A stretch of DNA of 64,000 nucleotides, taken from contig CALLFZ010000038.1 of NCBI GenBank assembly GCA_938010045.1, positions 1 through 64,000 on the forward strand, in the 5' to 3' direction. The stretch is from an uncultured bacterium (GTDB lineage: Bacteria; Verrucomicrobiota; Kiritimatiellia; PWTM01). Below the pieces are notes generated by a model. That model saw nothing but the letters and a program-made list of their open reading frames with translations, was not told the DNA's origin and searched no databases. Shown here piece after piece: positions 2,499-13,767 of this stretch. Made by a program: the position numbers and the translations under genes. Within the stretch, counting starts at the first letter, position 1. Every line of letters begins with the position of its first letter.

Positions 2499-2917
2499 CT
2501 GGATGCCGAGCAGACCGGCGATGCCGGTCCGGTCGATGATGCGACGGCGACGCAATCTTCCAACGCTCGGGTGACCACCGAATGTCCGTTAGACCGGGCC
2601 CTGTCAGAGCGCGGACGGCTGTAGTTCCGGTGGCCTCGCGCCGGGGCGAAGCGCTGGGGCCGGCGACCATGCAGCGAAGCCCCAAGCGAGAACACAGCGT
2701 GTACCCGCCCCCTCTGGCCGCAGAGCGCCGCAGCGGCCAGGGCGATCGGTTGGACCGCGAACGCTGGGGCGTCGCTGCTCGTTGCGCCACCCACCGCCGT
2801 ATGGTTGGGCCTCGCCGTGCTCGGCCGACAAGCGGCAGGGCGAGGCCGGCAGGCCACCCGACCACTCGATGCGGTGGACAACGTTAACTGCGAACGACGC
2901 AAAAGACGGCGGATCGC
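2499..2917. other. Intergenic, no supportable gene
   Basis: This holds the downstream flank of the URO-D remnant and the 3' side of the sulfatase operon. One copy of the CTGTAGTTCCGG core (about 2622-2636) is present. I see no clear terminator hairpin after the sulfatase stop at 2918. Confidence 0.5.
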
Positions 2918-4738
2918 TCAAGGCAGAAGGGTGAGGGCGAGACCGCGGAGGTGCATGACTTCGCGGCCCGCGATCGAGCGCGCGCGCAGCTCAAGCGGCC
3001 CCCGCCCTGATGGCAGCCGCACTCGCCCGAGACGTAACGGCCGGAATTCTTTCACGTAGCTTTCGACGTTCGGCCGTGGAATGACGTCCTGATCCGTGAT
3101 CGGCGGCGGATCCCATGCAGGCTCCACCCGGCCGGAGAGTGTCGCGCCCAGGAACGATAGTTCGATCACTGAACCGGCGTCAGCGGCCGCGCAGGTGTAC
3201 CAGAGCTCCACGTCATACTCGCCGGCCGTAACGACCTCAATGTCGAACGTGATCCGATCGGCGGTGCTCGTCCAATTCACAAAGTATGAGCAGTTCGGCG
3301 CGCTCGAGCTGCGCGCGACCGTGCCGGAGGGCACGCCGTCCTTCGCCGGCAGAAACGTCCGCGGGAACTCGCGATAGCCGACGGGATGCGGGCGTGTGTC
3401 GGGCGGAAGCTCACTGCGGCGACCGCGGCGGTGGGTGGCGGGCGGCGGCAGGCCGACGTCGCGCCGCCATGCGTCGAGTTCGGCTTCAAGCCGCGCCGCG
3501 ATGTCAGGCTGCGCGTCGCGCAGATCGCGGGTTTGGCCGGGATCGGCCCACATGTCGAAGAGCGCGCCGTCGGCGTCGAGCCGCCAGCGTTCAGTGCGCG
3601 CGCTCGCGCGGCCGCCCCAGTGTGCAACGATGAGGCGGTCGGTCCACGGCGCCGTGTCGCCGCGTAACAACGGGGTGATGTCCCGCCCGTCCAGCGGCCG
3701 GTCGCCGACGCGCGGAATGCCGGCCAGCGCGGTGAGCGTGGGCAGCAGATCCACGGCCCCGCAGATCTGCGTGACCACATGGCCGGCCGGCAGTACACCG
3801 GGCCACCGAATGAAGCACGGCGAGCGGACGCCGCCCTCGTCGGTGGTGCCCTTGCGGCCCTTCATGCCGCCGTTCCAGCGCGAGCTGTTCGGGCCGTTGT
3901 CGGAGAAAAACACCACGATCGTGTTGGACGCCACGCCGAGCGCATCGAGACGGCCCAGCAAACGGCCGACGTTGTCATCAATGTTCTCGACCATCGCGAG
4001 CGCGGCGCGGGTGACGTCGAGCGTTTCGCGGTCGCCGTCGGGACCGCGCTGCTCGATCGGACGGTCCCGCCAGCGCTCCCAGTATGCGCGTGGCACGATG
4101 AACGGCGAGTGGGGCGTGTTGATCGCGAGATAGGTGAACCAAGGGCGGTCGCGGTGGCGCTCGCAAAACTCGATTGCGCGGTCGGTGAGATCGTCGACGA
4201 TGAACCCGCGGCCCCGGACAGGTCGGCCGTTGTGTTCGAGCGGTGGATCGAAGTATTCGCCCCAGTGGCCCTCAGTGAACCCGTAGAACTCATCGAAGCC
4301 GCGCGCGTTCGGATGGTAAGGCCACTGGCCGCCGTTGTGCCACTTGCCGAAACAGGCGGTGGCGTAGCCCGCGGCGCGGAACGCTTCGGCGATGGTGCGT
4401 TCGTCGGCGTTGAGGCGTTCCTGGCCGGTGCTCACACCGGTGACGCCGCCCCGCAGATGCCAGCGGCCGGTGAGGAATTCAGCGCGGGTGGGCGAGCAAA
4501 CGGGCTGGACGAACAAGCGGTCGAGCGTCACGCCGTCACGCGCGAGCGAGTCAATGTGCGGCGTGCGGAGCTGTCGATGTCCGTTGACGCCCAGGTCGCC
4601 CCAGCCTTGGTCGTCGGTCAGGATCACGAGCACATTGGGGCGCGGCGGCACTTCGCGGGGCGCGGCGGCCGTTGTGATGGCAGTCGCGACCATCACAACA
4701 AGGCCGATCGTGCATCGGTGAAGACACCGACGGATCAT
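2918..4738 (-). CDS. Exported type I sulfatase with C-terminal beta-domain
   Basis: A formylglycine-dependent sulfatase (alkaline-phosphatase fold) of 606 residues, expected to hydrolyse sulfate esters on a glycan outside the cytoplasm. A hydrophobic signal segment (residues 10-26) is followed by the metal-binding DD pair (42-43) and the modification motif C81-S-P-T-R85; C81 would become formylglycine. Further sulfatase motifs are GKWHNGG and VVFFSDNGPN. The catalytic domain ends near residue 445. The last 160 or so residues form an extra module resembling a carbohydrate-binding beta-sandwich (ITFDIEVVTAGEYDVELWY). The ATG at 4738 overlaps the upstream sulfatase stop as ATGA, which fixes this start over longer readings. 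It is the last gene of a three-sulfatase operon. The substrate is unknown, and no sulfatase-maturating enzyme is encoded nearby. Confidence 0.93.
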   Translation of the reverse strand: MIRRCLHRCTIGLVVMVATAITTAAAPREVPPRPNVLVILTDDQGWGDLGVNGHRQLRTPHIDSLARDGVTLDRLFVQPVCSPTRAEFLTGRWHLRGGVTGVSTGQERLNADERTIAEAFRAAGYATACFGKWHNGGQWPYHPNARGFDEFYGFTEGHWGEYFDPPLEHNGRPVRGRGFIVDDLTDRAIEFCERHRDRPWFTYLAINTPHSPFIVPRAYWERWRDRPIEQRGPDGDRETLDVTRAALAMVENIDDNVGRLLGRLDALGVASNTIVVFFSDNGPNSSRWNGGMKGRKGTTDEGGVRSPCFIRWPGVLPAGHVVTQICGAVDLLPTLTALAGIPRVGDRPLDGRDITPLLRGDTAPWTDRLIVAHWGGRASARTERWRLDADGALFDMWADPGQTRDLRDAQPDIAARLEAELDAWRRDVGLPPPATHRRGRRSELPPDTRPHPVGYREFPRTFLPAKDGVPSGTVARSSSAPNCSYFVNWTSTADRITFDIEVVTAGEYDVELWYTCAAADAGSVIELSFLGATLSGRVEPAWDPPPITDQDVIPRPNVESYVKEFRPLRLGRVRLPSGRGPLELRARSIAGREVMHLRGLALTLLP

Positions 4739-6213
4739 GGGCGCGTCCTCCGGGGGTTCGGTCCTGCGTCGGCGGCCGCATCGGGTCGCCAGTTGGGGTT
4801 GGGCTCGGGCATGCGCGCGCCGAGTTGACGCTGCCATTCGGCGAGGCGGCGGCGCATGTCGGCCAGTCGTTCGGGTTCCTCCGCAGCGAGATCGCGGCGC
4901 TCGCCGGGGTCATCCGAAAGGCGGTAGAGCTCGGCGCGGTTTTCCTCGTAGAACTCGATCAGTTTCCAATCGCCAATACGGATCGCAGCGCCGGGGGCCC
5001 AGCCGGAGCCGTGGTAGTGTGGGTAGTGCCAGACGAGTTCGCGGTCGCCGGGCGTGGGACGGCCGAGGAGGGCGGGCACGAGGCTAATGCCATCGCAGTG
5101 CAGGTGTGGACGCCGAGGCAGCCCGGCCAGCTCAAGTAAGGTCGGCACGAGATCCATCGTGACGGCGGGCCAGTCGGTGACGGTACCCGCCCGACCGATG
5201 CCCGGTGCACGGATGATCAACGGGACGCGAATGCCGCCCTCGTACAGCCACCCCTTGCCGGCGCGGAGCGGCAGATTGCACGTGGGCCCTGGCGAGCGGC
5301 TGGTGCAGAGGCCGCCGTTGTCAGAGGTGAACACGACGATCGTATTCGTGTCCAGACCGAGCGCGTTGAGGCGGTCGAGGACGTATCCCACCGCGTCATC
5401 CACCGCGGCGACCATGCTGTGATATTCGGCGTGGTCCTGGCGAGCTCGGGAGAAGACCTGGCGTTCGGGGATGGGGTCGGGCGCTGGCGGCAGCGCAGCA
5501 GCCTTCGCGCGGGCGGCGCCGATGCGGCGGGGGTTGGCGTGCAGCGGCGTGTGAACGTTGTAGTCGGCGTAATAGAGGAAGAACGGCCGAGCCGGATCGC
5601 GTCGTTCGATGAGCCGCACGGCCTCCTGCGCAAGGCGCTCGCCCAGGTACTCGCCCTCTGGCCCGTCCTTCAGATCGGTCAAGCCGTAGGGCGAAAAGTA
5701 GCCGCGGGGCGGCAGTCCGTAATTGCGGCCGCCCACGTTCACATCGAACCCCTGGTCAGTCGGTCCGAACCCCGTACCACCGAGGTGCCACTTGCCGACG
5801 TGCCAGGTCTGATAGCCGTGGTCTCGCAACAGCTCGGCGATCGTGACCTCCTCGAGCGCGAGCTCCGAGCGATCTTCGACTTTCCGAAACCGGCAGGCGG
5901 AGGTTTCCTTCGGGTGCATGCCGGGGAGCCAGTCGGTGATGTCCACGCGCACGGGGTGGCGGCCGGTCATGAGGGCGGCCCGCGTCGGCGAGCACACGGA
6001 GGCCGCCGCGTACGCCTGCAGGAAGCGCACGCCCGCGGCGGCAAGCCGGTCAATGTTCGGTGTGTCATAAAAGGTGCTGCCGTAGCAGCCGAGGTCGGCC
6101 CAGCCGAGGTCGTCAATGAAGAAGACCACGATGTTCGGCGGAGGCGAGGCCGCATGAGCCAGTCCAGCGGCGAACCAGAGTGTGAGGATGAACATTCGGC
6201 GCGGAAGTTTCAT
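4735..6213 (-). CDS. Exported type I sulfatase
   Basis: A 492-residue sulfatase of usual family length. The N-terminus is a classical signal peptide (KLPRRMF, then a hydrophobic run to AHAAS, cleavage near 21). Metal ligands D34-D35 and the formylglycine motif C74-S-P-T-R78 are present, as are the GKWHLGG and VVFTSDNGG motifs. It is the middle gene of the operon: its start overlaps the previous stop (ATGA at 6210-6213) and its stop overlaps the next start. A good ribosome-binding sequence (AAAGGAGCC) precedes the ATG. The general fold places it among arylsulfatase A-like enzymes acting on sulfated polysaccharides; the specific sugar and position cannot be read from sequence. Confidence 0.93.
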   Translation of the reverse strand: MKLPRRMFILTLWFAAGLAHAASPPPNIVVFFIDDLGWADLGCYGSTFYDTPNIDRLAAAGVRFLQAYAAASVCSPTRAALMTGRHPVRVDITDWLPGMHPKETSACRFRKVEDRSELALEEVTIAELLRDHGYQTWHVGKWHLGGTGFGPTDQGFDVNVGGRNYGLPPRGYFSPYGLTDLKDGPEGEYLGERLAQEAVRLIERRDPARPFFLYYADYNVHTPLHANPRRIGAARAKAAALPPAPDPIPERQVFSRARQDHAEYHSMVAAVDDAVGYVLDRLNALGLDTNTIVVFTSDNGGLCTSRSPGPTCNLPLRAGKGWLYEGGIRVPLIIRAPGIGRAGTVTDWPAVTMDLVPTLLELAGLPRRPHLHCDGISLVPALLGRPTPGDRELVWHYPHYHGSGWAPGAAIRIGDWKLIEFYEENRAELYRLSDDPGERRDLAAEEPERLADMRRRLAEWQRQLGARMPEPNPNWRPDAAADAGPNPRRTRP

Positions 6214-7817
6214 CGCAGGCTCCTTTCGTTGGCGGCGGCCGAGAGGCGCGGATGACCGGGCGCGGCCTCCGGCGGCGCCGCGGGCGACGCGCCGGGCCGG
6301 GCGGCGCCGGCCGCGCGGATCGCCTCGAGCGCCGCGGAGAGCTGGGCCACGAGATCGGGGTGGGTGGCGGCGATGTTGGTCGTCTCGCCCGGATCGGCTT
6401 CCAAATCATAGAGTTGCGGCTCGCGCGAGGTACCGAGTTCGATTCCGGTGTTCGGATTGCGCGCGGGCCCGGGCGCGGGCGGAATGAATTTCCAGCGGCC
6501 CCGGCGCACGGCGAGGCCACTGGTGCCCTGAAGCACGATCTCGGTCCGCCCAGTGGAGGATTGACCCAGCAAGGCTTCAAGAAGCGGAATCCCGTCGGGC
6601 GACTCGGTCGGCGCCAGCGGCCGCCGGACAAGCGCGGCGAAGGTGGCCAGCAGGTCCACTTGGCCGATCACCGCATCGCTCACCGCACCGGCGGGCACAT
6701 GGCCGGGCCAGCGCACGAGCCACGGCGTGCGCGAGCCCCCCTCAAATTGGCTGTACTTGCCGCCGCGCAACGGCCCCGCGGGACGGTGCTCGCCGAGCTT
6801 CTCCATGGCGTCGTCGACGTAGCCGTCATTGACGACGGGACCGTTGTCGCTGGTGACGATCACAAGGGTCTGCGTCGTCAGGTTCAGGCGGTCGAGCAGG
6901 TTGAGCATGGCGCCAACGGTGCCGTCGGCCTGTGCGATCGCGTCGCCGCGTGGGCCGTGCGGGGTGCGGCCGACCCAGCGTGGGTGCGGCACGCGCGGCA
7001 CGTGAGGGTCGTGAAGCGACAAGAACAGAAAGAAAGGACCGGGCGCGGCGCGTTCGACGAAGGCGGTGGCGCGCCGGACGAACTCATCCGCCATGTCCTC
7101 ATCGCGCCAGAGCGCGGCGGTTCCACCCTTCATGTAACCGATGCGAGAGATGCCGTTGACGATTGTCTGGTCGTGGCCGTGGCTGGGGCGAATGCGCAGC
7201 AGGTCAGGGCGGTCGCGACCGGTGAGGACGCCGGGGAGGGGCCGGCCGTAACTGACCTCGATCGGATCTGCCGGATCGAGGCCAACCACCCGGTCATTCT
7301 CGACGTAGACGCAGGGGACTCGGTCGCCGGTGGCCGGCAACAGAAACGCGTACTCAAAGCCGAGGTCAAGCGGGCCGGGTCGGATCACGCCGTTCCAGTC
7401 GAGGTCCCCGGACCCGAGGCCGAGATGCCATTTACCCACGATCGCGGTGCGGTATCCGGCCTCGCGCAAGATTGAGGCCAGCGTGATGCGGCCGGGTTCG
7501 ATGATGAGCGCGGCATGGCCGGGCAGGATGTCCGTGCCGCGCCGCCGCCAAGCGTATTCGCCGGTGAGCATCGCGTAGCGCGACGGGGTGCAGGTGGCGG
7601 CGCCGGCGTACGCGTTGCGGAACCGCGTTCCCTCACGCGCGAGACGATCCATCGCCGGCGTCGGGATCGTGCGCGCCCCGTAGCATCCGACGTCGCCGTA
7701 GCCGAGATCATCGGCATAGATCAGCACAATGTTCGGACGTTCGGCCAGCCGGGAATGTGCCGGCGAGGCCCAGGCCGCGCTCCATGCGAGCGCCATCATC
7801 CACGAGATACAACGCAC
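6210..7817 (-). CDS. Exported type I sulfatase, CTPSR type
   Basis: First gene of the sulfatase operon, about 535 residues. Metal ligands D36-D37 and the formylglycine motif C76-T-P-S-R80 are visible, plus GKWHLGLG and IVTSDNGPV. The start is uncertain. The GTG at 7817 gives MRCISWMMALAWSAAWASPAHS, a signal-like N-terminus, and is preceded by AAGGAGG at 12 nt. The ATG at 7799 gives a shorter signal. A much longer open reading extends upstream but lacks protein-like sequence. The CTPSR form differs from the CSPTR of its two operon partners, suggesting a different sulfatase subfamily and possibly a different linkage on the same polymer. The gap to the upstream kinase gene is only 62 bp, so transcription may run through. 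Confidence 0.9.
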   Translation of the reverse strand: MRCISWMMALAWSAAWASPAHSRLAERPNIVLIYADDLGYGDVGCYGARTIPTPAMDRLAREGTRFRNAYAGAATCTPSRYAMLTGEYAWRRRGTDILPGHAALIIEPGRITLASILREAGYRTAIVGKWHLGLGSGDLDWNGVIRPGPLDLGFEYAFLLPATGDRVPCVYVENDRVVGLDPADPIEVSYGRPLPGVLTGRDRPDLLRIRPSHGHDQTIVNGISRIGYMKGGTAALWRDEDMADEFVRRATAFVERAAPGPFFLFLSLHDPHVPRVPHPRWVGRTPHGPRGDAIAQADGTVGAMLNLLDRLNLTTQTLVIVTSDNGPVVNDGYVDDAMEKLGEHRPAGPLRGGKYSQFEGGSRTPWLVRWPGHVPAGAVSDAVIGQVDLLATFAALVRRPLAPTESPDGIPLLEALLGQSSTGRTEIVLQGTSGLAVRRGRWKFIPPAPGPARNPNTGIELGTSREPQLYDLEADPGETTNIAATHPDLVAQLSAALEAIRAAGAARPGASPAAPPEAAPGHPRLSAAANERSLR

Positions 7818-7879
7818 ACTCAGGCTCTGCCTCCTTGGCGCCAACGGCACGGAGCCGGGATGGTCCCGTGCCCGACGAG

Positions 7880-10800
7880 TCACGGACGCCGGTGCGGACG
7901 CGGCCCAAGCGGACGCTCGTCCGGCGGCGGACTCGCGTCGAACTCGGCGACCGTCACGAGCGCATCGGGCGACGTGCCTACATACCTCAACGATTTGATC
8001 TCGTAAACAACCGCTCGCCATCGAGGAGTGTCCGCCGGGATCACCAATGTTGCGAGTGTCGTCGAACGGGTCAGCGGCGATGGATCGCGCACACGACTGC
8101 ATCCCGCGAGATCGAGATACTTCAGCGGCAACTCCGCCAGCGGCGAGAGGTCGGTGAGCGGGCAGTGCGAGAGCACCAGCCGTTCGAGCGGCATGCCGGC
8201 CAGCGGGGACAGATCGGTCACTTGGGTGTAGGCTGCCTGGAGAGACTGGAGTTTCAGACCGCGCAGCGGGGCCAGATTGCTGAGTTCGCGGTTGTGGCTG
8301 ATCTCAAGCCGCCGGAGCGGCAAACCGTTCAGCGGAGATAGATCCGTCCATCCGCCCGCGTTGATCCGCAACTCCACGAGCTGCTTCAACGACCTCAGGG
8401 CGGACCCATCGCGGATCTGCGTGCAGCCGCTGGCGTTCAGAAACTCGAGCGGTACATCGGCCAGCGGCGAGAGGTCGGCCACCGCTGTACCCTCCATAGA
8501 CAGCACTTTGAGCGGAAGACCGCGCAGAGGCCGCAGGTCATCCACCCGCGCGCAGCCATCCATGCGCAGCTCCTCCAGCGGCATACCCGTGAGGTGGCGG
8601 ATGGTCGTGATCTGGGGATTCTGGCTGATGTTGAGCCGGCGCAGCGGCATGCCGGTGAGGGTGGCGATGGTGGCCAACCGGTTGTCCGACACATCGAGCG
8701 ATTCCAGGGCCAGGCCCGCAAGCATCGCGAGATTGTCGAGACGGCAACGGATGAGCGCGAGGCGGCGGATCGGCAGTTGCCGTAGCACGTCGTAGTTCTC
8801 GAGCCGGCCGCTGCGCACTTCGAGTTCTTCGATCGGGAGGCCCCGCAACATGGAGAGGTCGCGCCACGGGGGCGCCATGAGGACGACTTTGACGAGGGGC
8901 AAACCCTCGAGCGGAGCCAGAGTTATGATCTGCTCCGCGGCCGCGCCATCCAGATGCAGCTCGAGACCGTCCGGTCCGGTCCGCAGCACCGAGTCCGGCG
9001 GCACGGCGAGAGCGGGGTTTGAGCGACGCAGGCCGTCGCGCGCGCGATCCAGCACGGCGGGATCCACTTCGCGAGGCCGCGTGTGAACACGCTCGGCCGC
9101 GTCGAGAAACTCTGCAGCCTCAGCCGCGCAGCGGGTGGAGCCGTGCGCACGACGGAACTCAGCAACCGCAGCCCGGATCGCGGGCAGATCCGCGGCCGGG
9201 TAGCCGGTGCGTCGGACCTTGGTGGCCGCCTCGGTCGCCGTCGCGCCGTCGGGCACGCCGAGCCGTCGCTGCAAAGCGGCCAACGACCGCTGAGCGGCGC
9301 TCTCGGCAGCGGATTGCACCTCCTCGTCGAGCACTCTCAGCATCAGGGCAACGAACGGATCCGACGCCACCGGTTCGAGATGACGGCGCGCGGCCGCCAC
9401 ATTGCCGCTCTCGATCAAGAGCAGCGCCTGCAGCACGCGGTTCGCGGGCGCGGGCACGCGCTCGAGCCGGCGGAAGCGTTCGGCCACGGAGAGCTCCGCG
9501 AACTGGATTGTGCGCTCGACGTACCCGCCGCCGACCTTGCGGCGCGCCTGGATCGCGCCGCCGTTCATGCCGGTGATTTCCCACGCCTCGACACCGCCGC
9601 TGAGCTGCAGCTCAACCGTCCGCCCCACGTCCGCGCGAAACGTATCGAGCACCAGCTCGCGGCTGCGCTGCGCGGCGACGAGCATGTTGCGGAACGCCAC
9701 GTGGGGTTCGGCTGTGGGGTCGGCCCCGGCCCCACGAACGGCCTGGTCAAACGTCGCGATCGCCTCGGCCGGCTTCATCCGGAGGATCAGGCGGACGGCT
9801 TCCATCCGGCCGCGATCGATCGCCTCGCGCGCGATACGATCCCGCTCGACCGCGGCCTGCTCCTCGAGCGCGCGGAGCCGCGCGGCCTCCGCGGCGCGCT
9901 GTTCGGCGGTTTCGTCTTTCCAAGGACCGCTGTACTCCTCGAACAGGCGGCGGGCTTCGGCATAGCGGTTCGAGGCGATCAGCGGTTCGGCCTCGCGCAC
10001 CAATCCGTTGAAGGCAGCCTGCACATCGGCCCGAATGCGCCGGCGGAGCCCCTCGATCTGCTGACGCGCGAGTCGCGCAAATTCGGTGCCCGCGCTCTCG
10101 TGCTCGAAGTCCGTCCAGCGCCGAATCAGTTCGCTGGGTTCGGCTTCGTGTTCCTTCTGGAACTGCAGCAGTTCCAGATAATTCTGTTCGAGCTTGTTGA
10201 GGCGAGCGTGCGCCGCGTCCGGCGGGGCGCCGGTCGGCGAAGTCTCGGCCGAGTCGTGGCCGGTGTCCGGGACGCCGTACCGAAGGACCCATCGCGCCGC
10301 AAGGGCCACGATGATCGCGGCGGCCACTGCGACGACGGCACGGATGGCGATGTCCATGGGACGGGTACGTCGAGCGCTGCCGCCCTCGCGGATCGCCTGC
10401 AGTTCGGCCGCCGTCACCCGCACCCGGTTCGTCGGCTCCGCGGGCAGCGCCCCGTGCAGTGGCGGCTTGCCTGCGAGTACGCGGTCGATGTCGGTGATGA
10501 GTTCCTTCCAGGTCGAGTAGCGCTCAGCGCGATCGTGCGCCAGCATGCCGGCCAACAGCGCCACGGTGGCGGGCGAAATCTGAGGCTGGAAGCTGCGCGG
10601 ATCGGGAAGCGGCTCCTCGAACTTGCGGCGCAGCGTCTCCTCGGGCGTGTCGGCCGCGTACGGGAGCTGGCCGGTGAGCATGTGGTAGAGCGTCGCGCCG
10701 AGCGCGTAGATATCCGAACGGCAATCAAGGTCGTCCCGCCCCTCCGCCTGCTCGGGGCTCATGTAGTTCGGGGTGCCCGCGATCCGCGGATGCTCCGCGC

Positions 10801-11410
10801 GGCCTTCGGCGGCCTGGACCGACTGCGCTAGGCCCAAGTCGGCGAGCTTCGGCTCCCCGTGGGCATCCATCAGGATGTTGCCGGGCTTGATATCGCGGTG
10901 CAGCAGCCGGTGTTCGGTCCAGGCGTAGTCGAGCGCGCGCGCGATCTTCCGGATGATTCGCACCGCCTCGCGCTCGGGGATGTGACCCTGCGTGGCGAGC
11001 CGCCGGTCGAGCGCCTCGCCATTCACGTAACTCATCGCGAGGTAGAGGTAGCCACCATCCTCGCCCGCCTCGTGCGCTGTGACGATGTTCGGATGCTCCA
11101 GCCGGGCGAGCGTTTTGACTTCCTGGATGAACCGCTCCTTGTCCTCGGGGCTGCGGGCATGCGCGGCCATGATCTTGAGCGCCACCGGGCGCTCCATGGA
11201 GAGCTGCCGCGCCAGATACACCTCCCCCATCCCACCGGTGCCCAGCAGCCGCTCGATCCGGAATCCGCCAATGGTCACTCCCGGCCCCAACCGCGCCTGC
11301 GGCACGGTCACGTCCGTGCCGCACTGCGGACACTGCACCTGCTGGCCCGACGCCGACGCGTCAATGGCCATCTTGCACTGACAGGCCGGACATCGGAAAC
11401 TAATCTGCAT
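7880..11410 (-). CDS. Zinc-ribbon Ser/Thr kinase with LRR domain
   Basis: A Hanks-type protein kinase of 1176 residues. Order of parts: a two-pair zinc ribbon (C7/C10, C27/C30); a kinase domain with glycine loop GTGGMGEVY (57-65), lysine K79, catalytic loop HRDIKPGN (171-178) and DLG in place of DFG (191-193), plus SPEQAEGR and SDIYALG; a single membrane span near 355-380; a long charged, helix-rich stretch with probable coiled coils; and a C-terminal array of about ten leucine-rich repeats of 22-24 residues (units such as LSPLAGMPLERLVLS). The kinase is predicted cytoplasmic and the LRR array periplasmic, like a receptor. The ATG at 11410 is chosen because the zinc ribbon starts immediately after it; upstream sequence is not protein-like. 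It runs in the same direction as the sulfatase operon, 62 bp ahead of it. The signal and target are unknown. Confidence 0.92.
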   Translation of the reverse strand: MQISFRCPACQCKMAIDASASGQQVQCPQCGTDVTVPQARLGPGVTIGGFRIERLLGTGGMGEVYLARQLSMERPVALKIMAAHARSPEDKERFIQEVKTLARLEHPNIVTAHEAGEDGGYLYLAMSYVNGEALDRRLATQGHIPEREAVRIIRKIARALDYAWTEHRLLHRDIKPGNILMDAHGEPKLADLGLAQSVQAAEGRAEHPRIAGTPNYMSPEQAEGRDDLDCRSDIYALGATLYHMLTGQLPYAADTPEETLRRKFEEPLPDPRSFQPQISPATVALLAGMLAHDRAERYSTWKELITDIDRVLAGKPPLHGALPAEPTNRVRVTAAELQAIREGGSARRTRPMDIAIRAVVAVAAAIIVALAARWVLRYGVPDTGHDSAETSPTGAPPDAAHARLNKLEQNYLELLQFQKEHEAEPSELIRRWTDFEHESAGTEFARLARQQIEGLRRRIRADVQAAFNGLVREAEPLIASNRYAEARRLFEEYSGPWKDETAEQRAAEAARLRALEEQAAVERDRIAREAIDRGRMEAVRLILRMKPAEAIATFDQAVRGAGADPTAEPHVAFRNMLVAAQRSRELVLDTFRADVGRTVELQLSGGVEAWEITGMNGGAIQARRKVGGGYVERTIQFAELSVAERFRRLERVPAPANRVLQALLLIESGNVAAARRHLEPVASDPFVALMLRVLDEEVQSAAESAAQRSLAALQRRLGVPDGATATEAATKVRRTGYPAADLPAIRAAVAEFRRAHGSTRCAAEAAEFLDAAERVHTRPREVDPAVLDRARDGLRRSNPALAVPPDSVLRTGPDGLELHLDGAAAEQIITLAPLEGLPLVKVVLMAPPWRDLSMLRGLPIEELEVRSGRLENYDVLRQLPIRRLALIRCRLDNLAMLAGLALESLDVSDNRLATIATLTGMPLRRLNISQNPQITTIRHLTGMPLEELRMDGCARVDDLRPLRGLPLKVLSMEGTAVADLSPLADVPLEFLNASGCTQIRDGSALRSLKQLVELRINAGGWTDLSPLNGLPLRRLEISHNRELSNLAPLRGLKLQSLQAAYTQVTDLSPLAGMPLERLVLSHCPLTDLSPLAELPLKYLDLAGCSRVRDPSPLTRSTTLATLVIPADTPRWRAVVYEIKSLRYVGTSPDALVTVAEFDASPPPDERPLGPRPHRRP

Positions 11411-11505
11411 CGAGCATAACCACGCTGTTCTGCGCTCGGATAGTATGCGATGCGACTCCGGCCTGACAAACCGGCACGAAACGGTGCCTCCGTTGACGTT
11501 CGACG

Positions 11506-11829
11506 ATGACCGCGCTGAAGACATGGGAGATCGGACTGCGCATCGCGGCGTACACATGCGGCGCGGCCGGCGCGGTGCTCGCGGTTCGTACCCGTCCCGG
11601 AACCAGTGCGCCCCTGCCCGCCATCGCGCTGCTCGGAGCGATGGTCGCCGCGTTCCTCGGGGCGAATGGGCTGCGCATCGCGGCACAAATTCGGTCAATC
11701 CACCGCCCGCCCCTGCGGCGCCCGTCGGCGGCGGGCGGGGCCGACGACAACTCGAAAAACGAGGGTTGCGGGCGCGCGCCGGCGTCGGACGCCCAACCGC
11801 CCAGCGGGCAGTCTCCGAATGACCCGTGA
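11506..11829 (+). CDS. Small two-span membrane protein, unknown
   Basis: A 107-residue protein with two likely membrane segments (residues 9-27 and 37-56) and a polar Ser/Pro/Asn-rich tail. It is divergent from the kinase gene (95-bp gap) and its last 11 bases overlap the start of rlmN in another frame. Overlap and direction suggest co-transcription with rlmN. I recognise no family. The hydrophobic segments are regular enough to suggest a real gene, but no strong ribosome-binding site is visible. Confidence 0.55.
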   Translation: MTALKTWEIGLRIAAYTCGAAGAVLAVRTRPGTSAPLPAIALLGAMVAAFLGANGLRIAAQIRSIHRPPLRRPSAAGGADDNSKNEGCGRAPASDAQPPSGQSPNDP

Positions 11830-13015
11830 CGTTCAATCGGCCACGCCCTCGCCGGACACCGTAACGGCACTCTCCCCGCCGGCCGGCTCCAGCTGCGCCT
11901 CTGCGTCGACGCCGAACACGGCGCCGCTGCTCGGATGGACCCTCGATGAACTGGCCGCGATCGCGCGCGAATTCGACCTGCCCCCCTACGCGGCCCGTCA
12001 GCTCGCCGGCTGGCTATACCGCCGGCACGCCATCTCGTTCGCCGAGATGACCGACCTGCCACTCCGCGCGCGCACCCGGCTCGCGGAGCGGTACAGGGTG
12101 GGCGCCGCCCCGCCGCACGAGATGCTCGTCTCCCGCGACGGCACGCGAAAGTACCTGTTTGCGGTGGCGCCCGAGCGCTGCGTCGAGACGGCCTGGATTC
12201 CCGACCGCGAGCGCTCGACGCTGTGCGTCTCGACCCAAGCCGGCTGCCGCATGCGCTGCCGGTTCTGCCACACAGGGCGGCAGCGATTTGGCGGTGATCT
12301 CTCCGCGGCGGAGATTCTCAACCAGTACCGCTCGCTGCCGGAACGGGACCGTGTGACGAATATCGTCGTGATGGGCATGGGAGAGCCGCTCGACAACTGG
12401 GGCGCCGTGCGGCGGGCGCTGCAGGTCTGGACAGCCCCGTGGGGATACGCGCTCAGCCCGCGGCGGATCACCGTCTCCACCGTCGGCGTCCTGCCCGCGC
12501 TGCGCGAATTGCTGGCCGAAACCCATGTGCACGTCGCAATCAGCCTGCATACGCCATTCACGGAGGAACGCGCAGCCTGGATGCCCAGCGAGCGCGCCCA
12601 TCCCATTCAAGACGTGCTCGAGGCGCTGCGATCGGCCGACTGGGCGGGACAGCGCCGCCTCATGTTCGAATACATCGTGTTCAGCGGACTGAACGACTCG
12701 CCGCGGCATGTGCGCGAACTCGCCCGCCTTCTGCACGGGCTGCCCTGCCGCATCAATCTAATGCGCCACCATCCCTGGCCGGGGTCATCGCTACCCGCCA
12801 CCGACGAGGCCGCCGTGTTCCATTTCCGCGACGCGTTGGAACGCCGAGGGTTTGTTGTGACCATCCGCCGGTCGCGCGGCAGTGACATCGCCGCGGCCTG
12901 CGGCCAATTGACCACCGCACGGCGTCCGACGACGTCCGCGGTGGCCGGCATGTCGCTGCCCCTCGCCCGCGACGCCACGGAGAAGAGCTGGTACAACGGG
13001 AGGCTGCACGAATGA
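11819..13015 (+). CDS. rlmN: 23S rRNA/tRNA A2503/A37 C2-methyltransferase RlmN
   Basis: A radical-SAM methylase of 398 residues that methylates C2 of adenosine 2503 in 23S rRNA (and often A37 in tRNAs). The [4Fe-4S] motif is C143-x3-C147-x2-C150. The methyl-carrying and resolving cysteines are seen in STLCVSTQ (C136) and DIAAACGQL near the C-terminus. VVMGMGEPLDNW and ISLHTPFTEERAAWMP are family hallmarks. The ATG at 11819 follows from the N-terminal helical domain starting after a Ser/Pro-rich leader of about 35 residues, a little longer than usual. The stop overlaps the next gene's start (ATGA). Confidence 0.95.
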   Translation: MTRDVQSATPSPDTVTALSPPAGSSCASASTPNTAPLLGWTLDELAAIAREFDLPPYAARQLAGWLYRRHAISFAEMTDLPLRARTRLAERYRVGAAPPHEMLVSRDGTRKYLFAVAPERCVETAWIPDRERSTLCVSTQAGCRMRCRFCHTGRQRFGGDLSAAEILNQYRSLPERDRVTNIVVMGMGEPLDNWGAVRRALQVWTAPWGYALSPRRITVSTVGVLPALRELLAETHVHVAISLHTPFTEERAAWMPSERAHPIQDVLEALRSADWAGQRRLMFEYIVFSGLNDSPRHVRELARLLHGLPCRINLMRHHPWPGSSLPATDEAAVFHFRDALERRGFVVTIRRSRGSDIAAACGQLTTARRPTTSAVAGMSLPLARDATEKSWYNGRLHE

Positions 13016-13767
13016 GAACTCGCCCTCTGGTGGGGATCGCATTCCTCGCCATGAACCTCGCCGGCGTCGGGGCCGCCGAACCGCCCCGCGTGCTGATCTA
13101 TACCCGCAACGGAAAGGGGTTTGTGCACGATAACATCGCCTCGTGTGTCGAGGCGTTGACGGCGGTGTGCCGCCAGGCGGGTATCGAGACCGCGGTGACC
13201 AACGACTGGAACATCTTCACGCCCGAATCTCTTCGGCGCTTCCGCGCCATTGTGTTCGCGAACACGAACAACGAGGCCTTCGAGAACGACGAACAGCGCC
13301 ACGCCCTTCAGGAATTCATCCGTGGCGGCGGCGGGTTCGTCGGGATCCACTCCGCGACCGGGTCCGAGCGTACATGGCCCTGGTACTGGGCGCTCATCGG
13401 CGGCACGTTCGCGTGGCATCATCCGCTGCAGCCGTTCCGAGTCCGCGTGGTCGACCGCGAACACCCCGCCACCTCCTTCCTGCCCGATCCATGGGAGTGG
13501 CGCGATGAGTTGTACTACGTGAACAAGCGCAATCCGAAGGTGCGCGTGCTGCTGGCCGGTGAACAGGCCAGCCTCGCGAAGCCCGGTAAGCCGCCGGCGG
13601 GCCTCACGGATCTTCCCGAGCCGTACCCGCTGGCCTGGTGCCACGAATTCGAAGGCGGCCGCAGTTTCTACACCGCCCTAGGCCACTTGAAGGAGCACTA
13701 CCGCGATCCGCTGTTTCGCCGTCACCTGCTCGAAGGCATCCGCTGGGCGGCGCGCCTCGACCGCTGA
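13012..13767 (+). CDS. Secreted ThuA-domain protein
   Basis: A 251-residue protein made of a signal peptide (residues 1-21, ending GVGAAE) and one ThuA domain (PF06283, glutamine-amidotransferase-like fold). Typical features: VLIYTRNGKGFVHDN at the N-terminus, FIRGGGGFVGIHSATG, the WHHPLQPF stretch, DELYYVN, and CHEFEGGRSFYTALGHLKEHY at the C-terminus. ThuA proteins are linked to uptake or modification of sugars such as trehalose in rhizobia, but the reaction is not settled. It overlaps rlmN by ATGA, so it is translated from the same message although functionally unrelated. The paired TCCAAAGCTTGGA repeats begin 80 bp after its stop. Confidence 0.88.
   Translation: MRTRPLVGIAFLAMNLAGVGAAEPPRVLIYTRNGKGFVHDNIASCVEALTAVCRQAGIETAVTNDWNIFTPESLRRFRAIVFANTNNEAFENDEQRHALQEFIRGGGGFVGIHSATGSERTWPWYWALIGGTFAWHHPLQPFRVRVVDREHPATSFLPDPWEWRDELYYVNKRNPKVRVLLAGEQASLAKPGKPPAGLTDLPEPYPLAWCHEFEGGRSFYTALGHLKEHYRDPLFRRHLLEGIRWAARLDR

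Follow-up and report, generated by a model that had tools for sequence, protein, structure and literature searches.

A probable single-pass receptor Ser/Thr kinase with a predicted extracytoplasmic leucine-rich repeat solenoid and sulfatase neighbours in a bacterium of the Kiritimatiellia

PknB consists of an N-terminal kinase, a single membrane helix and a C-terminal part outside the cell. Plant receptor-like kinases with leucine-rich repeats (LRRs) have their LRRs outside at the N-terminus, followed by one span and a Ser/Thr kinase inside at the C-terminus. To our knowledge, few of the signals to which bacterial receptor-type Ser/Thr kinases respond have been identified. In its main text, a survey of kinases in the Planctomycetes-Verrucomicrobia-Chlamydiae (PVC) group describes single-span kinases with outside arrays of TPR or WD40 repeats as common, and the words 'LRR' and 'leucine' are absent from that main text (PMC11032199). 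Among the matches listed from the open-licence literature, none with bacterial LRR kinases as its title topic was found. Here we describe a kinase gene in a window of 64,000 nucleotides (positions 1 to 64,000 of contig CALLFZ010000038.1, GenBank assembly GCA_938010045.1) from an uncultured bacterium of the Kiritimatiellia. The gene encodes a zinc ribbon, a Hanks-type kinase, a membrane span and an LRR array, and three sulfatase genes follow it. We consider it probable that the product is a single-pass receptor Ser/Thr kinase of a class-wide family, and that the sulfatases are late neighbours, maybe co-transcribed, in the genome of the window (G000) and in its sister species (G001).

The PknA/PknB-type Hanks kinases of Actinobacteria and Firmicutes have the same kinase fold and the same succession of N-terminal kinase, one helix and C-terminal outside part. 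Unlike them, the window kinase has a zinc ribbon in front and a helical/beta module with LRRs behind the helix; it scored below the cut-off of the PASTA kinase family (NF033483, 260.7 against 450 bits), and Pfam returned no PASTA match. The single-span Ser/Thr kinases of the Planctomycetota, as described in the main text of the PVC survey, also combine a cytoplasmic kinase, one span and C-terminal outside repeats, but these periplasmic repeats are of the TPR or WD40 type, with LRRs in their place in the window kinase (PMC11032199). Plant LRR receptor-like kinases likewise join outside LRRs through one span to an inside kinase; the order kinase-span-LRR is, however, the reverse of the plant type, to which the window protein does not belong, and the likeness would be convergent at most.

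The arrangement of zinc ribbon, Hanks kinase, one membrane span and LRR array (Table 1), as first read from the sequence, was confirmed by Pfam, alignment, hydropathy and an AlphaFold2 model. The frame is surely coding, because the third-position changes relative to the sister species (575 over 1173 codons compared) far outnumber those at first (185) and second (103) positions. The kinase domain matched PF00069 over residues 51-302 (E 1.6e-53, 182.2 bits against a curated cut-off of 31.7), and K79, E97, D173, N178 and D191 were invariant in all 28 aligned sequences, the window protein included. As the catalytic residues are all present, the kinase is predicted to be catalytically competent. 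Its model superposed on PknA (4ow8) with a VIA Z of 33.0 and a root-mean-square deviation (rmsd) of 2.0 over 270 aligned residues at 36% identity. A comparison with PHROGs gave three matches, the best being a family of phage Ser/Thr kinases that aligned with the kinase domain and the other two families of unknown function. The four cysteines of the zinc ribbon (C7, C10, C27 and C30) were invariant in the nine aligned full-length sequences (the window protein and eight relatives); the ribbon stayed under the Pfam cut-offs (LysW-type, 19.8 against 27 bits).

The original prediction had singled out the DLG motif in place of DFG. The motif is indeed there, in nine of nine aligned full-length sequences, but it is not a peculiarity: a pattern search found DLG at 23, DMG at 3 and DFG at 2 of 28 readable other loci (one further locus was unreadable), and DLG is unremarkable because it prevails in related kinases. 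A study of Nek7 reports similar activity after a change from DLG to DFG (PMC2807034).

Table 1. Features of the kinase gene and its surroundings, in window coordinates
Feature	Position	Strand	Details
LRR receptor kinase gene	7880..11410	-	ATG 11410, stop 7880-7882, 1176 aa
Four-cysteine zinc ribbon, N-terminal	11291..11410	-	residues 1-40, CxxC...CxxC, C7 C10 C27 C30
Hanks-type kinase domain	10475..11263	-	residues 50-312; K79, E97, HRD 171-173, N178, DLG 191-193
Membrane-spanning helix	10277..10360	-	residues 351-378; hydropathy and helix in model
Helical module with small beta barrel, predicted outside	8987..10213	-	residues 400-808; strands 598-636
LRR solenoid	7976..8986	-	residues 809-1145; 14 core strands and 2 edge strands
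Kinase-sulfatase 1 gap	7818..7879	.	62 bp, AGGAGG upstream of GTG 7817
Sulfatase 1	6210..7817	-	PF00884 4e-45; neighbour, outside conserved unit; in-frame GTG 7817
Sulfatase 2	4735..6213	-	PF00884 3.8e-54; 4 bp overlap with sulfatase 1
Sulfatase 3	2918..4837	-	PF00884 9.9e-55; start not fixed, long open frame overlaps sulfatase 2
Promoter-like site	11440..11469	-	immediately upstream of kinase; consensus scan, not proof

The protein has a single clear membrane segment (residues 354-372; best hydropathy window 2.65, runner-up 1.81), and each of the nine aligned sequences contains one strongly hydrophobic segment. Judging from this one helix and the build of such kinases, the zinc ribbon and the PknB-like kinase would be cytoplasmic, and the helical/beta module and LRR solenoid are predicted to lie outside the cytoplasmic membrane. 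The AlphaFold2 model of the whole protein, based on 23 aligned sequences, reached a mean pLDDT of 86 with a pTM of 0.48, so that the mutual placing of the domains is unsure. It runs from the kinase through the membrane helix to helices 400-594, the strands of the small barrel, further helices to residue 808 and the LRR solenoid. Among five close sequences, mean pairwise identity was highest in the kinase (0.86) and next highest in the zinc ribbon (0.74); the LRRs (0.57) and the helical/beta parts (0.43-0.65) varied more, and the membrane helix (0.24) varied most. The inside part is therefore more strictly conserved than the outside part.

The solenoid is a genuine LRR structure, with a Pfam match over cut-off (LRR_4, E 7.1e-19, five stretches, 67.8 against 27 bits) and regular strands spaced 21-23 residues apart in the model; the initial estimate of about ten repeats is raised by the model to 14-16 strands. 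The region in front of it had been taken for a coiled coil, an assignment that we discarded, as the models of both the whole protein and residues 395-812 alone (pLDDT 93.3) show a compact folded helical/beta module. No Pfam family exceeded its cut-off on this module (best E 0.2), a profile search against PDB sequences gave at best a ribosomal protein judged to be a chance match (E 0.0024), and the best Foldseek match (E 0.062) was below confidence. Fold comparison returned mostly TPR-like or other helical proteins with VIA Z between 5.6 and 8.1, those ranked highest having an rmsd above 19, and the small barrel was similar to a portion of RimP (58 aligned residues, rmsd 1.8, Z 5.7); the lack of a fold match does not prove a new fold. 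At E 1e-8, a profile of the module hit 32 of 58 related genomes, and its 12 top-scoring positions are all kinase genes.

By analogy with PknB-type kinases, a ligand would bind the LRR/helical ectodomain and alter dimerisation, upon which the kinase would phosphorylate its own activation loop and afterwards cytoplasmic targets.

Relatives of the kinase were found at E 1e-60 or better in at least 132 of the 288 class genomes drawn, many of the listed matches spanning only the kinase and the adjoining part, and we infer that the family is spread through the Kiritimatiellia. Full-length relatives shared 80% (G001), 62% (G002), 58% (G003 and G006), 41% (G005 and G008) and 39% (G004 and G041) identity with the window protein. 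The 29 other loci that were read had been picked for high score or LRR coverage and are not a random sample, and the presence of LRR_4 at E 0.001 in 26 of 28 aligned proteins (window included) is partly due to this selection. In a tree of the kinase domain, the window copy joined G001, G002, G003 and G006 (support 100/99). The zinc-ribbon motif occurred in 14 of the 28 rows labelled as LRR proteins, the label being a pattern count of at least four, which placed L150, with three, in the other group. The tree requires five changes of this label (starred branches force two) and contains long branches, which makes any number of LRR gains and losses provisional. The genome of the window, with seven PF00069 matches, and its sister both hold LRR-less paralogues (733 aa; L118 and L120) that have the kinase and the stalk in common with the LRR protein.

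Lectin_C and F5/8-type C modules are usually found outside cells. Two distant relatives, G041 and G169, which cluster together in the tree, have C-terminal F5/8-type C (E 1.8e-22) and Lectin_C (E 2.7e-5) matches; an outside location of the C-terminal part therefore fits, and sensing of surface polymers is possible. The genes in which these modules follow the LRRs lie at L117 441-4763 and L133 6419-10342.

The 62-bp distance and common direction of kinase and sulfatases were correctly described, and the proposal built upon them was that LRR sensing of glycans or cell contact is a mode of control over the degradation genes. As a conserved mode, this was not borne out by the relatives. In G001 the same three sulfatase genes (76-83% identical) lie directly downstream of the kinase, and G002 has different sulfatases 4.0 kb away; no sulfatase was found in the flanks searched at the other 27 of the 29 loci. 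Four loci could not be judged downstream (L117, L143 and L151, with less than 0.5 kb, and L139, whose frame is interrupted where its contig stops), and the fair base is therefore the 25 loci with at least 2.8 kb downstream: one with a sulfatase directly downstream, one at 4.0 kb and 23 with none. The search panel comprised 11 sulfatases at E 1e-10, by which remote sulfatases could be missed, and other enzyme classes were checked only among the neighbours of some loci.

The sulfatases themselves are found elsewhere in the relatives. The best match of sulfatase 1 lay off the kinase contig in G002 (65% identity), G003 (64%), G006 (62%), G008 (54%) and G004 (50%), and none was found at E 1e-80 in G005 and G007. 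G003 has sulfatase 2 (65%) immediately behind sulfatase 1, the two forming a unit that lacks the kinase, and in G006 a third contig carries the best match of sulfatase 2. A single gene comes after sulfatase 1 in G002; its first half resembles sulfatases 2 and 3 alike, and its second half resembles sulfatase 3. The kinase of G002 is in mid-contig, so that the separation is not an assembly gap. This kinase-free pair occupies L154 5585-8990, the sulfatase 2/3-like gene having a frame change in the assembly. The genome of the window has 53 PF00884 matches within 3.2 Mb; once pieces were merged, these correspond to about 49 genes, which form some 38 co-directional clusters. By a rough reckoning in which gene number was estimated from genome length, the chance that a kinase directly precedes a sulfatase cluster is 1.4% per kinase and 9% for any of the seven, and the chance that some kinase lies within 5 kb of one is 59%. 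On the strength of the relatives' loci, the sulfatase 1 matches and these chance figures, a conserved sulfatase-control module was rejected, and the locus does not belong with polysaccharide-degradation loci that have a dedicated sensor, enzyme linkage not being kept across relatives. Given the sparse linkage and the separate sulfatase units, the adjacency is best read from the sequences as derived: the kinase would have been kept without sulfatases in its own family of species, and the sulfatases would have arrived downstream in the lineage that G000 and G001 share.

A terminator or separate promoter between kinase and sulfatases was looked for, and neither a terminator-like nor a promoter-like site was found in the gap by consensus and terminator scans. 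The gap folds like its shuffles (z -0.17) and has a GC-rich hairpin without a T run. The corresponding gap in the sister measures 41 bp, with AGGAGG ahead of the sulfatase start in both species. Across 2800-11900, the promoter consensus gave just two, overlapping hits, both at the promoter-like site upstream of the kinase (region shuffles mean 0.5). Co-transcription of kinase and sulfatases is thus plausible in both species. It could amount to mere read-through, in which the sulfatase block uses the kinase promoter with no signalling link, a reading compatible with the receptor family and late neighbours and to which we give almost an even chance: direct linkage is confined to the two sisters, and sulfatase 1 has its own AGGAGG behind a gap with no promoter-like site found, although the consensus scan would overlook other promoter types.

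Another proposal, in which the kinase surveys the state of the cell envelope, such as the assembly of the outer membrane, appears unlikely. It would agree with a SIS/CBS gene near the kinase in G005 and an 87% identical one in G008, ABC_membrane-type ABC exporters near the kinase in G002 and G008, and a Glyco_transf_9 (heptosyltransferase) gene in G003, these envelope-type neighbours and the carbohydrate-type ones being observations without a background rate. No single adjacent gene is conserved, however, the neighbours including dapB in G002, typA in G004, rpoN in G005 and an oxidoreductase gene in G003, and the window copy itself adjoins rlmN, a ThuA gene and the sulfatases. That the LRRs sense a sulfated glycan or cell surface and thereby control the three sulfatases is improbable: the short co-directional gaps with no terminator or promoter found in them, the linkage retained at 80% kinase identity, the arabinofuranosidase-type and sulfatase genes that G002 has past dapB (other strand) in the direction of the kinase (L112 2036-7272), the opposite-strand DUF2961 and oxidoreductase genes of G003 (L113 2316-6100) and the two relatives with lectin-type or F5/8-type C modules speak for it, but they are outweighed by the 23 sulfatase-free loci, the five genomes whose best sulfatase 1 match lies apart from the kinase and the chance figures.

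Several observations weigh against a class-wide receptor family with late sulfatase neighbours. The sister keeps the sulfatase linkage, and carbohydrate-type genes are also found downstream in G002 and G003, so that kinase and sulfatases may be functionally coupled. The deeper branches of the kinase-domain tree are weakly supported. The topology is a prediction, and some relatives have balanced charges on the two sides of the membrane helix or a bias in the opposite direction (left/right charges 1/2 in L109, 0/1 in L110 and L115, and 2/2 in L113). Mapping of conservation onto the LRRs and ectodomain showed no clear ligand surface.

More tentatively, the family may represent LRR receptor kinases distributed throughout the Kiritimatiellia, in which a conserved helical/beta stalk bears exchangeable outer parts (LRRs and sometimes lectin-type or F5/8-type C modules) for the sensing of surface polymers or other cells, and with possible capture of a sulfatase operon in this lineage. 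If true, bacteria would possess a receptor-kinase system that arose by convergence with the LRR kinases of plants. The group offers a defined LRR ectodomain amenable to modelling, supplemented by lectin-type or F5/8-type C modules in two relatives. The case also calls for caution, as adjacency is a weak guide to function in genomes as rich in sulfatases as this one. A paper on Pontiella agarivorans gives 165 sulfatases for this one Kiritimatiellota strain, and it places histidine kinases and response regulators in some neighbourhoods (PMC10880615).

Beside the kinase, rlmN and the ThuA-type gene (window 11606-13767, + strand) are kept in the sister. The envelope-type genes mentioned above (ABC exporters, Glyco_transf_9 gene and SIS/CBS gene) are located at L112, L113, L115 and L116. 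A small gene for a two-span membrane protein (window 11506-11829, + strand) is divergent from the kinase and occupies the same place in G001, G002, G003 and G006. It is coding by comparison with the sister (39 third-, 18 first- and 10 second-position changes over 70 codons), and no Pfam family exceeded its cut-off. It resembles a conserved partner of the kinase, but weaker matches occur in other contexts of other genomes, two of them adjoining what appear by eye to be ribosomal protein L13 genes.

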